DNA from: Saprospirales bacterium GYS_P2D
GTDB lineage: Bacteria; Bacteroidota; Bacteroidia; Chitinophagales; Saprospiraceae
Length of the DNA stretch: 64,000 nucleotides
NCBI GenBank assembly: GCA_009833045.1
Contig: WUUP01000005.1
Location: 62,001-126,000, forward strand
Reading direction: 5' to 3'
Shown here one piece after another: positions 41,680-46,913 of the stretch; within the stretch, counting starts at the first letter, position 1, and each line of letters opens with the position of its first letter. A program made the position numbers and the translations under genes. The notes beneath the pieces were generated by a model. That model was not told the DNA's origin and searched no databases. It saw only the letters and a program-made list of their open reading frames with translations.

Positions 41680-41771
41680 GAGGGTGCTAAAGCAGCAGAT
41701 AAGATCCAGTCCTCGTTCTTATGAATAGAATGTCAGTTGATATTCACATAGGTTAATAGTACATTTAGAGG

Positions 41772-42335
41772 ATGGACTTCGTATTAGGATTAGATCATGA
41801 GGCTGATTATATCGCCGCCTGCGCCCGCAACGAGCGGTGGGCCCAGGAGATCGTCTATAAGGAGTACTATCCTATCATGATGTCGATATGTCTGCGATAC
41901 TCTAATAATCGAGAAGACGCATTGGACATCTTGCACGAAGGATTCATCAAGGTATTCAAGCACATATCAAAGTTTAAGCAAGGGACTTCTCTGTCTGCCT
42001 GGATGAAAAGAGTCATGGTGAATACAGCAATCGACTACTATCGTAAGCGGGTCAGGAGACGGACAGAAGATCTCGATACCGTACTCGATATGTCATCGAG
42101 TGGTCCCGACGTCATCAGCCAGATGACGGCCCAAGAGATCTTAGTCTGTCTGCAGCAGCTATCACCATCTTATCGTACAGTATTTAACCTATACGTCATT
42201 GAGGGATATTCGCATAAGGAGATCGCCGAGCAACTCGACATCTCTGAAAGTACGTCCCGATCCAATCTGGTCAAAGCCAGGACAAAATTGAAAGTATTGT
42301 TAGCAGCGAAGAGTGAGGAATATGGCAAAAGATAG
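41772..42335 (+). CDS. ECF-type RNA polymerase sigma factor
   Basis: A 187-residue group 4 sigma factor. Region 2 (about 25-95) includes YPIMMSICLRYSNNREDALDILHEGFIKVF for core and -10 binding. Region 4 (about 120-178) has YSHKEIAEQLDISESTSRSNL, a helix-turn-helix for -35 recognition. There is no region 3. The gene overlaps the next by 14 bases, so both proteins are probably made together, the usual layout of a sigma factor and its membrane regulator. A TACATTTA box lies only 5 bases before the ATG. Confidence 0.93.
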   Translation: MDFVLGLDHEADYIAACARNERWAQEIVYKEYYPIMMSICLRYSNNREDALDILHEGFIKVFKHISKFKQGTSLSAWMKRVMVNTAIDYYRKRVRRRTEDLDTVLDMSSSGPDVISQMTAQEILVCLQQLSPSYRTVFNLYVIEGYSHKEIAEQLDISESTSRSNLVKARTKLKVLLAAKSEEYGKR

Positions 42336-43785
42336 GTTTGATGATGAAATACGAGATCTCTTAGGCGGACATACACCTGAGTATGATGCTAGCTCGTGGG
42401 ATAAGCTTTCTCAGACCTTAGATGAGATGGATGGCGAAGGCGAGGCTGATTTTGAGCCGATGATGAAAGAGAAACTCGAAAGCTACACCGCTCCTCTCAA
42501 GGAAAGTCATTGGCTAAAATTCAAAGAAGAACTTGAGGCACTCGAAAGACGTCGCTACAGACTCTGGGCTATCAAGCTTACGGAGTCGGTCATTGTCTTA
42601 TTGTTGCTTTTCACATATTGGAACTATACACAGCTGAAGTCAGAGAAGACTGATAACATTCACTATGCAGCTGTAGAAGAGAATACTATAGAAAGCGAAT
42701 CTCAATCTTCAAATCCTATAGTGGCTTTAAATGCTAGTCAACAAGAGGGTATCCATCAAGAACAAACATCGATAGCAGCAAGTGAAGACTTTAAAACGAT
42801 AAATGGATCAACTGTAGCAGGAGAAATTTTAAGTGTAAATACTTCATCCACGATAGAAGAAAGAGCGTTTGATAAAGCCAAATCGGTATATTCTACAATA
42901 GGTGATTTATTAAGTACGCTATCGGCCCCGATCAATGATCAGTCTACCCCTATGCAATCGGAAGCTATAGCCGAAGAAAGTAATCTAAACCTCTTTGATC
43001 ACGATTATTTTCATTCTATTGCTCGCATAGCACTATCACCTTTTGATCTGACTCTACCTATAGTAGCATACGCTCCAGAACAGGTAGTGATCATCAATAA
43101 TCTGAACACAAAAAGTAATAGTCAAGATGGCTTTTGGCTATCAATACCTGTATCTCAAGATTTTAACTTTGTTAACTCAGCTATTAATCTCGATTACTTT
43201 GCCTCACAGGTGTCATCTGGAGTCTATGGTTCATCGATCGGTATACTGGGGTCATATATGAAGGGGTCCATTGAGCTCGAGACAGGTCTGCGATATAGTG
43301 ATAAGAGCTATGCTCCAGGTCTACTACGCAGCTTCTCTAAGGCCAGTGCCGATACTTATTTGGAGTCACAGCTGGACTTCGTACGATTCAATCAGCTACA
43401 GGTACCAGTAGTGGTTAAGCTACATGCGCTCAGTGATAGCAGAGTCAATTTGTACTCGATGGCTGGATTTGCTATCAATGGAGTATTAGACTATGACTAC
43501 AATATCCGTAAGTCGGTACAGCCATCTGCCAGAGTGACATTCTTTGCGGATGAACCGCAGCTGGACATAGCGAATCTGCCAGAAGGAATCTTAGAAGGAG
43601 GTCGTGCTCAAAATAACATGTTCGTGACTGGAGTGCTCGGTCTTGGAGTACAGACCCAAATGCCCAATGGTGCTGCTCTATTCTTTCAGCCACAGTATCA
43701 GTTTAGTGTGATCGGGGATCTCAATGACTATGTACGAAATGTGAATACACTGAGTATAGAAGCAGGAATTAAGTTTAAATTTTAG
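42322..43785 (+). CDS. Putative sigma regulator: cytoplasmic segment, one TM helix, C-terminal beta-barrel-like domain
   Basis: A 487-residue protein. ATG at 42322 is chosen; a GTG at 42313 would add three residues. Residues 1-80 are acidic and cytoplasmic-like, with two copies of a short Trp motif (SSWDKLSQTLDEM around Trp26; SHWLKFKEELEAL around Trp64). One hydrophobic helix spans about 81-102. A polar Ser/Glu-rich linker (about 105-260) follows. From about 265 to the end there are alternating strands and a terminal NTLSIEAGIKFKF typical of an outer-membrane barrel (PorT-like). It overlaps the ECF sigma gene, which suggests an anti-sigma-like sensor reaching across the periplasm. No known anti-sigma zinc motif is present, so this is inferred. 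Confidence 0.7.
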   Translation: MAKDRFDDEIRDLLGGHTPEYDASSWDKLSQTLDEMDGEGEADFEPMMKEKLESYTAPLKESHWLKFKEELEALERRRYRLWAIKLTESVIVLLLLFTYWNYTQLKSEKTDNIHYAAVEENTIESESQSSNPIVALNASQQEGIHQEQTSIAASEDFKTINGSTVAGEILSVNTSSTIEERAFDKAKSVYSTIGDLLSTLSAPINDQSTPMQSEAIAEESNLNLFDHDYFHSIARIALSPFDLTLPIVAYAPEQVVIINNLNTKSNSQDGFWLSIPVSQDFNFVNSAINLDYFASQVSSGVYGSSIGILGSYMKGSIELETGLRYSDKSYAPGLLRSFSKASADTYLESQLDFVRFNQLQVPVVVKLHALSDSRVNLYSMAGFAINGVLDYDYNIRKSVQPSARVTFFADEPQLDIANLPEGILEGGRAQNNMFVTGVLGLGVQTQMPNGAALFFQPQYQFSVIGDLNDYVRNVNTLSIEAGIKFKF

Positions 43786-44453: not shown

Positions 44454-46913
44454 CTATTTATTGACTATGACGACATCTACTAAAAACTTCGCCTCTACTA
44501 CAATAGGATCTGTATTAGCGATGATGTCGAGTGTTTTTTCGTAGGGGCCTTCCATCCCAGCACTATCAAAGATTGCTACAATCTTAGCTGACTCTCCTGG
44601 AGAGACAGGCTCCTCGGGCCATGTGATCTCTGTACACTTACAGGCCGTGACTAAGTCAATGACTAAGTCTGCATCTCCAGTATTTTCAAATTCGAATGTG
44701 ATTTCTGATTTTTCTCCCTGAGTCAGTTTCCCGATATCTATATGATTCTCCTTGAATGTGATGATGGGACCTTGAACAGATTTTAAAAGATCTTTTCTTT
44801 TGAGGATATTACCGGTAGACTGTTTGCCACCGTTATAGGTATCTTTTTTGATCTCTCTTTTGATCTGTATGGAGTCTGGACCAGCGATGATTTTGAATTC
44901 CGTCCTTCTGTTGAATCTATGTTCCTCATCTGTACATCTTACCCCATTTACACATCGATTCAGGATGACGGATTCACCATATCCCACTGCTTTGATGCGA
45001 TCTTCTACGACACCTCTTTTCACGAGCCAGTCTTTTGCAGATTTAGCTCTTTTTTGAGAGAGGTCTTTGTTATATGGGGTCGTACCTCTGGAGTCAGTAT
45101 GTGATGATAGTTCTATCACCATATCTGGGTATTCATTCATGAGCTCGAGGATGGTGTTGAGATCAATCTCTGCATCTGGTAGGATATCCCACTTCTCAAA
45201 GTCGTAGTAAATATTATTGAGTCGAATTGCCTGATTAATAGTGACTGTCTCAATGGTGTATTCTGATAGATCTGGTTCTCCATCTCCATCTTTGTCGTTA
45301 GGATCAGGCGCCACTTCCAGCATTACTTTCTTACGGATCTTAGTGTCTTCTACGATCCCATTGGTAGTGAATTCTATAGTGTCAGATACGTACCCTTCTT
45401 TTGATGTGATTACTTGGTACTTTCGCTCAGAGTACAGATCAAATGGGAATCTGTATTCATCCTCCAAGGTCTTGTCCTCGAGTTCCTCGACGGTCATATC
45501 AAATAACTCGACGGTAGCTCCTTTGAGGGCTTTTTCTTTACCATCTACGAGCTCTCCTACACCGACTAATAGATCGATATCGAGCTGTCTGAGCTCAAAT
45601 GCATAAATATCATAGCAACAAGTCTCGCTCTTCAGTTTTTTCTTTTTTTCATCTGGACGATTTGAGACTAAGTATCCTTTAGTGCCATCAGTGTTGAAGC
45701 TAATCGAGTAGTCGTCATAGGGTCCATTATATTGATGTCCGAGATTGACAGGTGTAGACCAGGCCTTCCCATCCCAGTCACTGCGAAAGATATCGAGATT
45801 GCCCAGACCAGGTAGGGCGTTCGTGCTGAAGTATAGTGCTCCATCATGATAGCTCGGGCCGAGTTCGTTTTCTTCAGTATTGATGGTCTCTCCGAGATTT
45901 GTAGGTGTGCCCATGCGAGTACCATTGATCGTAGAGTAGTAGATATCATATCCACCCATGCCACCGTCCATATCTGAGACGAAGAATAGCACCTCCTCTC
46001 CAAAAAGCTCTCCTACAGATGGCTGCATAGAGATGAAGTCACCATTGACCACTTGGAGTGGCTCAGGTGCACTCCAATCATCAGAGCCCATAGTGCTGTA
46101 GTAGATGTTAGAGGAGATCACAGCTTCATTCTGCAGCGTCTGACGACAGAAAAACATGGTGCGCTTATCTTTTGAGAAAGTCACACCAGTGACATGAAAT
46201 CCGTCCCGATTGATTTTTCTGTTGAGGGGCTCTGGCTTGCCATATCCTTTTTCAGTCATCTCTGACTTATAGAGCTTGGCATGAAAATCAGTCTCCTTAC
46301 CATCGAGCACGATTTCTTTCCTACGTTGAAAAGATGAGAAGTATAGTGTCTTATCATCATACTGTCTTGGTGTATATTCACCATTACCGGTATTGATCTC
46401 TTCACTGCCAAACATGACTACCACATCATTATTAGGAGCGAGACTTTCGGCAATAGCCATACCATCCAGCTCGTTTTGAGCCAACTTACGGAGTTCTTCG
46501 TCATCGCTGAGCGCTAAAAATTTGTCGAACTCTACTTTTGCTTCTGCTTCTTTGCCCAGTGCTCGCAGTACCTTGCCGTATGAGTAGCGATCCTCTACGA
46601 AAATATTATCTATATCCTCCTCGAGTACTCGAGAGTACCATCGCTCCGCATTCTCATAGTCTCGCATTTTATAGTAACTATAGCCGATAGATAGGGCGAC
46701 GTCAGCGGATTTTACTTCTTTGTAGATGTTGCGATACCACTCCAGTGCATTGAAGTAGTCGCCGAGCTCCATTTGCTCATCAGCAGTAGCATACATATCA
46801 TCCAGCTTATAGCTCTTGATAGGCTGAGCAAAAGCTATAGCCCCGATCAATAAAAAGCAAAAACTGAGTAAGAATGATTTCATATTTATGGTAGTCGTTT
46901 TTATCATTTTCAT
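44454..46913 (-). CDS. OmpA-family PD40 protein with C-terminal DUF1573 domain
   Basis: An 819-residue envelope protein. After a signal peptide come TPR-like helices (about 35-150, ALEWYRNIYKEVKSADVALSIGYSYYKM), PD40 beta-propeller blades (about 190-440), a short regulatory-like beta domain, then OmpA (about 575-683, with SSHTDSRGTTPYN...RAKSAKDWL) that binds peptidoglycan. The last 105 residues (715-819) are an added DUF1573 immunoglobulin-like domain (IDIGKLTQGEKSEITFEFENTG...ACKCT). The first part is the layout of PorE-like type IX secretion and gliding components. ATG at 46883 is an alternative start. It follows the PorP gene by 21 bases and precedes pnuC by 13. Confidence 0.88.
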   Translation of the reverse strand: MKMIKTTTINMKSFLLSFCFLLIGAIAFAQPIKSYKLDDMYATADEQMELGDYFNALEWYRNIYKEVKSADVALSIGYSYYKMRDYENAERWYSRVLEEDIDNIFVEDRYSYGKVLRALGKEAEAKVEFDKFLALSDDEELRKLAQNELDGMAIAESLAPNNDVVVMFGSEEINTGNGEYTPRQYDDKTLYFSSFQRRKEIVLDGKETDFHAKLYKSEMTEKGYGKPEPLNRKINRDGFHVTGVTFSKDKRTMFFCRQTLQNEAVISSNIYYSTMGSDDWSAPEPLQVVNGDFISMQPSVGELFGEEVLFFVSDMDGGMGGYDIYYSTINGTRMGTPTNLGETINTEENELGPSYHDGALYFSTNALPGLGNLDIFRSDWDGKAWSTPVNLGHQYNGPYDDYSISFNTDGTKGYLVSNRPDEKKKKLKSETCCYDIYAFELRQLDIDLLVGVGELVDGKEKALKGATVELFDMTVEELEDKTLEDEYRFPFDLYSERKYQVITSKEGYVSDTIEFTTNGIVEDTKIRKKVMLEVAPDPNDKDGDGEPDLSEYTIETVTINQAIRLNNIYYDFEKWDILPDAEIDLNTILELMNEYPDMVIELSSHTDSRGTTPYNKDLSQKRAKSAKDWLVKRGVVEDRIKAVGYGESVILNRCVNGVRCTDEEHRFNRRTEFKIIAGPDSIQIKREIKKDTYNGGKQSTGNILKRKDLLKSVQGPIITFKENHIDIGKLTQGEKSEITFEFENTGDADLVIDLVTACKCTEITWPEEPVSPGESAKIVAIFDSAGMEGPYEKTLDIIANTDPIVVEAKFLVDVVIVNK

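Follow-up and report, generated by a model that had tools for sequence, protein, structure and literature searches.

The DNA studied here, referred to as the window, is a stretch of 64,000 nucleotides from contig WUUP01000005.1 of Saprospirales bacterium GYS_P2D. On its plus strand, a gene for an ECF sigma factor overlaps a gene for a partner protein, which is predicted to reach from the cytoplasm to the outer membrane, and two putative promoter elements precede the pair. The following features were recognized (positions are those of the window):

41692-41717, plus strand: putative ECF-type promoter element GCAGC-N17-CGTT, conserved upstream of sigma genes.
41737-41767, plus strand: second, housekeeping-like putative promoter element TTG-N20-TACATTTA, close before the ATG of the sigma gene.
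41772-42335, plus strand: ECF sigma factor, Das-like, 187 amino acids (PF04542, PF08281, TIGR02937 with 105 bits, alignment A1 of 22).
42322-43785, plus strand: partner, a Dma-like anti-sigma candidate of 487 amino acids (open reading frame, linkage, AlphaFold model).
42337-42414, plus strand: Trp unit 1, helical hairpin, residues 6-31 with W26 (repeat HMM 29.1 bits; model helices 2-14 and 22-35).
42463-42534, plus strand: Trp unit 2, proximal to the transmembrane (TM) helix, residues 48-71 with W64 (repeat HMM 18.2 bits; model helices 43-53 and 60-105).
42562-42618, plus strand: TM helix, residues about 81-99, predicted N-in (hydropathy 1.74, model, preceding ERRRYR).
42655-43116, plus strand: predicted disordered periplasmic linker, residues 112-265 (pLDDT < 50 in model residues 111-187, 200-256 and 258-264).
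43129-43779, plus strand: predicted 8-strand outer-membrane beta-barrel, residues 270-486 (AlphaFold, Foldseek, VIA-align; PF13568 in relatives).

The sigma frame was recognized by Pfam in region 2 (E 7e-18) and region 4 (E 3e-18); with the model NF058625 (PG0214/GFO_1088 sigma) it scored 80.4 bits, below the curated cut-off of 130. The partner starts with an ATG at 42322 and stops at 43785, and 42322-42335 belong to both frames, in agreement with the overlap of 14 bases claimed in an earlier note on this locus.

A model of the partner was obtained with AlphaFold from an alignment of 56 sequences (mean pLDDT 71.5; model residue n is protein residue n + 1). In this model, the second helix of Trp unit 2 continues into the TM helix (model helix 60-105), which is preceded in the translation by ERRRYR. 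Stretches with pLDDT < 50 hold 141 of the 154 model residues 111-264. Eight long strands follow in model residues 269-485, with pLDDT mostly of 82-98 in blocks and 57-66 in loops, and the chain ends with GIKFKF. Fold comparison with Foldseek and VIA-align, which covered model residues 265-486 alone, gave solved 8-strand outer-membrane proteins with Z of 16-19 over 133-183 residues, the top match being a Legionella T4SS-associated porin, followed by NspA, OprF, OmpA and OmpW. At the level of sequence, the search of solved structures with the partner gave none at E 0.1, the match to PF13568 was weak (E 0.054; nothing at the threshold of 0.01), and the NCBIfam scan gave a single match of 18 of 135 bits, below cut-off. 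PF13568 was matched individually by 42 of the 56 members of set A2, to which the Pfam barrel test was confined; A2 consists of the window partner and 55 partners from the best 80 loci described below, drawn from 71 left after removal of five running off their contigs, L095, L132 and two near-identical ones. The anatomy proposed earlier, i.e., two Trp-centred helical motifs, one TM helix, a long linker and a C-terminal barrel, was borne out by these methods, and residues 265-486 are modelled as an 8-strand barrel, not as the soluble periplasmic fold which had been named as the outcome that would speak against it.

The pair is conserved as such. When 60 relatives were searched with the partner alone, it was found in the window genome, in 32 of the 36 others belonging to the same genus or family, and in none of the 23 from other families; of 29 loci from this search, 27 yielded sigma gene and partner as neighbours. 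In the other two, the sigma gene was absent at a contig end (L058), or the partner match lay within a frame of 312 amino acids missed by the pairing comparison (L061). Scanning of named genomes with the alignment of sigma factors gave at least 562 confirmed matches, of which the best 80 were retained (L063-L142; Saprospiraceae and relatives, among them Portibacter and Phaeodactylibacter). In all 80 of these best loci of at least 562, the sigma gene is directly followed by an ORF encoding one Trp unit or more; 74 of these partners are complete (447-814 amino acids), five run off the contig and that of L095 is interrupted by masked bases. Assuming the earliest start codon, the two frames overlap in 72 of the 80. 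The absence of conserved linkage, which had been named as refuting the association, is therefore not the case, and chance pairing was rejected in view of the 27 of 29 and 80 of 80 loci (best 80 of at least 562). Membrane topology and linkage of the pair can be regarded as solid predictions. A genome-wide search for sigma genes beside genes of the same layout, also proposed earlier, gave 32 matches to sigma region 2 in the window genome, four of which have, by eye, a long partner of this kind (L005, which is the window, L011, L020 and L023; the TM helix of L020 is below threshold). A profile holding L011, L020 and L023 matches the barrel of the window family (hhalign 99.8%).

Among the recurrent neighbours of the best 80 of at least 562 loci there was no broadly conserved third gene of the operon. 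The most recurrent was a topoisomerase IV/gyrase A gene, which lies on the opposite strand about 1-4 kb upstream of the sigma gene in 47 of the 80 loci. It was followed by SmpB (15), DUF547 (14), an alpha/beta hydrolase (10) and an MscS-type channel (9), and three clusters (23, 19 and 9 loci) without a Pfam match may be antisense frames. In 11 of the 14 DUF547 loci, the DUF547 gene follows the partner in the same orientation and ends within about 2 kb; there it could be part of the operon.

The Trp-centred motifs, the presence of which had been noticed before, are units of a tandem array of variable length, which had been overlooked. The unit comprises 28 amino acids, with the consensus FDDIIREKLENLEVPYDPSHWDLLEERL, and repeats about every 40 amino acids in the cytoplasmic part; that this part is a tandem array, mostly of two to four copies and with a range of 1-10 among relatives, is new here. 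In 97 proteins (104 less seven duplicates), 244 matches of at least 5 bits were found in the 10,736 residues before the TM helix, and none in 37,533 residues of periplasmic and barrel sequence (0.4 per shuffle); the HMM was built from proteins in which it then counted, a circularity which is lessened, not removed, by the periplasmic control and the out-of-family set. By HMM, which gives lower bounds, one protein has no copy (L058, incomplete), five have one, 49 two, 32 three, eight four, and one each five and eight. The latter, L132, contains ten Trp residues at intervals of 36-39 residues, and ten units can be counted by eye; in L117, three Trp precede the TM helix, with a single HMM match. 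A tandem duplication of 114 bp is present in L132 at the DNA level, and its model shows a helical N-terminus (low confidence), TM helix, tether and barrel. The position of the TM helix moves by 39 residues per unit copy (r 0.93). On a sigma tree of 75 rows, at least 18 changes of copy number are needed, compared with 25-35 in 100 shuffles; copy number thus tracks descent, but alters often.

First, middle and last units hold 57.4, 55.2 and 55.1 bits of information, respectively, with D and W almost invariant, although the threshold of at least 5 bits favours conserved copies. The Trp is present in 90 of 91 first, 55 of 57 middle and 95 of 96 last units, the remainder being gaps, and the last unit bears a signature of its own, PY..HW..M..RL. 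The unit was also found with out-of-family sigma homologues: 35 of 46 partners (some near-identical) matched it with at least 5 bits, compared with 0.25 per replicate of shuffled sequences. Of 33 partners that were aligned, every one has the Trp, and OMP_b-brl_2 occurs in 16. One out-of-family partner carries PKD repeats (PF18911, PF00801), a hint that anti-sigmas of this type can exchange their outer module. In the window genome, the unit HMM gave no match with 24 other proteins encoded downstream of sigma genes, including L011, L020 and L023; the Trp motif in such proteins is visible by alignment or by eye alone. Three short proteins from the same genome (L006, L007 and L012; 108-199 amino acids), whose genes likewise follow other sigma genes, possess a single TM helix and scant room for a barrel, and L006 and L007 show the Trp motif by eye, unmatched by the HMM.

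The element at 41692-41717 had been missed in the earlier note. It was sought in a set of 76 loci, i.e., the window and 75 of the best 80 (of at least 562) loci, five loci with a match starting after residue 1 being omitted. In a dyad scan of the 150 bp upstream of the sigma gene, CAGC-N17-CGTT came out in 57 of the 76, compared with 7-9 for the best dyad in three shuffle sets; within 300 bp, it was found in 68, and a form with N16 in six more, the window being among the resulting 74 (the misses are L095 and L117). GCAGC-N16/17-CGTT was found before none of 46 out-of-family sigma genes, and in the window genome it was absent before 27 of 28 scanned sigma genes, i.e., all but that of the window. 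A second search gave the motif at seven of eight in-family loci (one 283 bp away), including the window and some that are probably repeats of the first set. From its presence at 74 of 76 family loci and at none of 46 others, this motif would appear to be a clade-specific promoter, new here, and autoregulation of the sigma gene is probable. TTG-N17..23-TAnnTTT occurs within the final 60 bp upstream of the sigma gene in 30 of the 76 loci (shuffle mean 1.3); the element of the window at 41737-41767 resembles the Bacteroidota -33/-7 promoter type. It is so near to the sigma ATG that a transcript from it would be nearly leaderless. With both elements, the operon probably possesses a basal and a self-activated promoter.

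Other genes led by the motif were sought in 60 family genomes, where RGCAGCAW-N15-CGTT has 237 matches versus 100 for its reversal, part of the excess, of uncounted share, being the sigma gene's own site. Examined were 120 of the 237 (80 hand-picked, with A/T-rich spacers favoured, and 40 others) and 40 of the 100 reversed ones; the 120 exclude the other matches of G017, one of G005, those at recognized sigma loci and those beyond the list. Four sigma loci and one short piece from each set were omitted from the tallies. Outside long ORFs were 33 of 76 hand-picked matches versus 4 of 39 others; the pooled 37 of 115 exceed random positions (13.4%, p 2e-7), and the difference from the reversed pattern (8 of 39) is not significant (Fisher p 0.22). 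Twenty genes start at most 200 bp from a non-coding motif copy, and 17 of them are exported according to a hydropathy rule (compared with 32% at random positions, p 1.5e-6); this rule was also passed by three of four genes of the reversed pattern, and among the 17 the start of L397 is probably misplaced. Pfam, applied to 17 motif-led genes, gave names to few of them: an OMP_b-brl_2 barrel, DUF6089, DUF5686, a T9SS-tailed protein, a lipocalin-like lipoprotein and a polysaccharide deacetylase; by eye, a look-alike of the deacetylase is motif-led in a second genome (L282 and L397). The window genome has 18 matches to GCAGC-N17-CGTT versus 10 for the reversed pattern, and no second target was found there, since only the window's own match is non-coding with a gene start close downstream; a motif-led target from a genome of the same genus, used as a query of 70 amino acids, was unmatched in it, in a search without positive control. 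An envelope-related output of the sigma factor in relatives is suggested by these data, which are the weakest part of the analysis.

The founding description of Dma anti-sigmas is reportedly a PNAS paper by Pardue of 2024. In FecR/FecI signalling, which also links the outer membrane to an ECF sigma factor, a separate TonB-dependent transducer is employed, and ZAS anti-sigma factors have a His/Cys zinc motif in their cytoplasmic part. The window partner differs from both: in the Pfam scan, a weak OMP_b-brl_2 match was the only one, without a FecR domain or a ZAS-type match, and its translation has no cysteine N-terminal to the TM helix. A closer counterpart is provided by Dma, the dual membrane-spanning anti-sigma, and its sigma factor Das, as far as they are described in the accessible text of PMC13088901. 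Dma consists of an N-terminal sigma-binding domain, a TM helix, a disordered tether and a C-terminal barrel, and its gene adjoins that of an ECF21 sigma factor; deletion of dma2 has an effect on vesicles which depends on das2, and the members named there are all from Bacteroides thetaiotaomicron (PMC13088901). With Dma1/Das1 and Dma2/Das2 the window pair shares the single TM helix, the long disordered tether, the barrel, the adjoining ECF sigma gene and the origin from Bacteroidota. Since its anatomy is the published one, the principle is known. The counterpart of the N-terminal domain of Dma would be the cytoplasmic Trp units, a role suggested by linkage; they number two in the window and 1-10 in relatives. 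Unlike in Dma1/Das1 and Dma2/Das2, the sigma gene precedes that of the partner and is led by a promoter motif of its own. In Dma3, a sigma domain is fused to the N-terminus (PMC13088901); the logic of sigma, TM helix, tether and barrel is similar, whereas in the window sigma factor and anti-sigma candidate are encoded by separate, overlapping genes, and no fused frame occurs among the sigma matches listed (open frames up to 289 amino acids). Membership of the Dma family rests on anatomy, the sigma factor being recognized as ECF in general, the group of those beside Dma genes being ECF21. In the literature searched (ECF21, ECF promoters, barrel anti-sigmas), neither repeated sigma-binding units nor the GCAGC-N16/17-CGTT promoter were found; the accessible text of PMC13088901 contains "tryptophan" nowhere and "repeat" once, in the methods, that of PMC12596196 names Das1/Dma1 and gives no promoter, and the founding paper may mention repeats.

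Very probably, then, the pair represents a sigma and anti-sigma factor of the Dma/Das kind, with predicted two-membrane topology, presumed sigma binding by Trp units and an operon presumably transcribed by its own sigma factor. The anti-sigma function is ascribed to the partner by analogy with its published relatives, and this reading does not rest on the regulon signal, so that its odds are unaffected by the weaker pooled figures. The partner would sit in the inner membrane by its single TM helix with the N-terminus in the cytoplasm, the disordered tether would cross the periplasm, and the barrel would provide the anchor in the outer membrane. The Trp hairpins are candidate sigma-binding units. 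As in Dma1 and Dma2, the sigma factor may be kept inactive until an event at the outer membrane or barrel travels down the tether; once freed, it would act on its own operon via GCAGC-N16/17-CGTT, a motif which it presumably recognizes, and perhaps on a few mostly exported proteins in related genomes. Of the idea of single-chain control put forward earlier, the chain leading from the cytoplasm to the outer membrane and its link with an ECF sigma gene have held; T9SS as the output has not.

How the sigma factor would be released is less certain. Regulated proteolysis is known for RseA and FecR-type anti-sigmas, and a linker as long and disordered as that of the partner would lend itself to cleavage. 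Activation could thus perhaps proceed in the ordinary way, with the periplasmic linker cut, the cytoplasmic part freed by an intramembrane protease and the barrel acting as a sensor which exposes the cut site. This deserves serious consideration, if at somewhat less than even chances; of eight recurrent neighbour clusters at the best 80 of at least 562 loci, the five named by Pfam include no protease, and three are without a Pfam match.

A further question concerns the number of sigma molecules held. Additional Trp units are as conserved as the TM-proximal one, and each is therefore probably a working binding site, so that one anchor may hold several sigma molecules; from the sequences, the partner would be a multivalent, envelope-sensing anti-sigma. 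Tentatively, this may be extended to a store in which each hairpin holds one sigma factor, a single barrel event frees one to ten of them into a promoter with positive feedback, and evolution tunes threshold or size of the response by gain and loss of units, as by the tandem duplication in L132. If true, the number of repeats would act as a dial by which a bacterial envelope switch is set. A Dma-type protein in which the TM-proximal unit alone binds sigma, with 1:1 stoichiometry and with upstream units as spacers, dimerization hairpins or decoys, is conceivable to a similar, limited degree: most out-of-family partners have one unit right before the TM helix, and the last unit has its distinct signature. 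Spacers, however, would be expected to lose the Trp, and the key positions are retained in first and middle units at the same information content, albeit among matches chosen at 5 bits or more.

The suggestion of T9SS control as one output came from neighbouring genes on the minus strand. A PorP-like gene (PF11751, E 3e-36) and a PorE-like gene are indeed present on that strand near the pair, though not immediately downstream as had been stated, because one gene for a PnuC-type transporter intervenes. The PorE-like protein (44454-46913, minus strand) scores higher with the OmpA model CHU_0125 (376 bits) than with that of PorE (274), both below the NCBIfam cut-offs, and carries a DUF1573/HYDIN-like Ig domain (residues about 716-806) C-terminal to the OmpA domain. 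That the pair is a T9SS regulator is improbable. In its favour, PorE/CHU_0125-like and PorP-like genes lie near the pair in the window, L063 and L087, a T9SS tail was recognized in one (L281) of the 17 motif-led genes of relatives, other than sigma genes, that were scanned with Pfam, and PorT was weakly matched by 10 of the 56 members of A2 (best E 1.4e-4). Against it, PorE plus PorP are missing at the other 78 of the best 80 of at least 562 loci, some of which end early at contig edges, the window genome has 10 PorP/SprF genes, and the sigma factor reaches 80 of the 130 bits required by the PG0214 model. PorE-like genes of weak similarity (25-38% identity) and without PorP were seen not more than about 5 kb away at L085, L088 and L128, and at L054 of the other set. 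T9SS as leading output was rejected on these grounds. PorX/SigP control the T9SS of Porphyromonas gingivalis (PMC4800418, accessible text); alike are the Bacteroidota ECF sigma factor and some T9SS-type genes nearby, but around pairs of the window type this neighbourhood is not conserved. Hardly tenable is the view that the sigma gene merely adjoins an unrelated outer-membrane protein, in the face of linkage at 80 of 80 loci (best 80 of at least 562), frame overlap and one cytoplasmic unit conserved alongside sigma far outside the family.

The wiring of the outer membrane to transcription by Dma proteins is a recent addition to the literature. To this, the present clade adds a defined promoter sequence, which should serve as a direct reporter for sigma activity, and a candidate for a minimal sigma-binding unit, about 28 residues long; with natural variants of 1 to 10 units, binding, stoichiometry and activation should be testable with short constructs.

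ECF sigma factors 45% identical to that of the clade were also noticed on two viral contigs from IMG/VR (L143, 4923-5498, and L144, 4968-5543). There, no gene with Trp units follows directly on the same strand; the next larger ORF resembles, by eye, a subunit of a type II topoisomerase.
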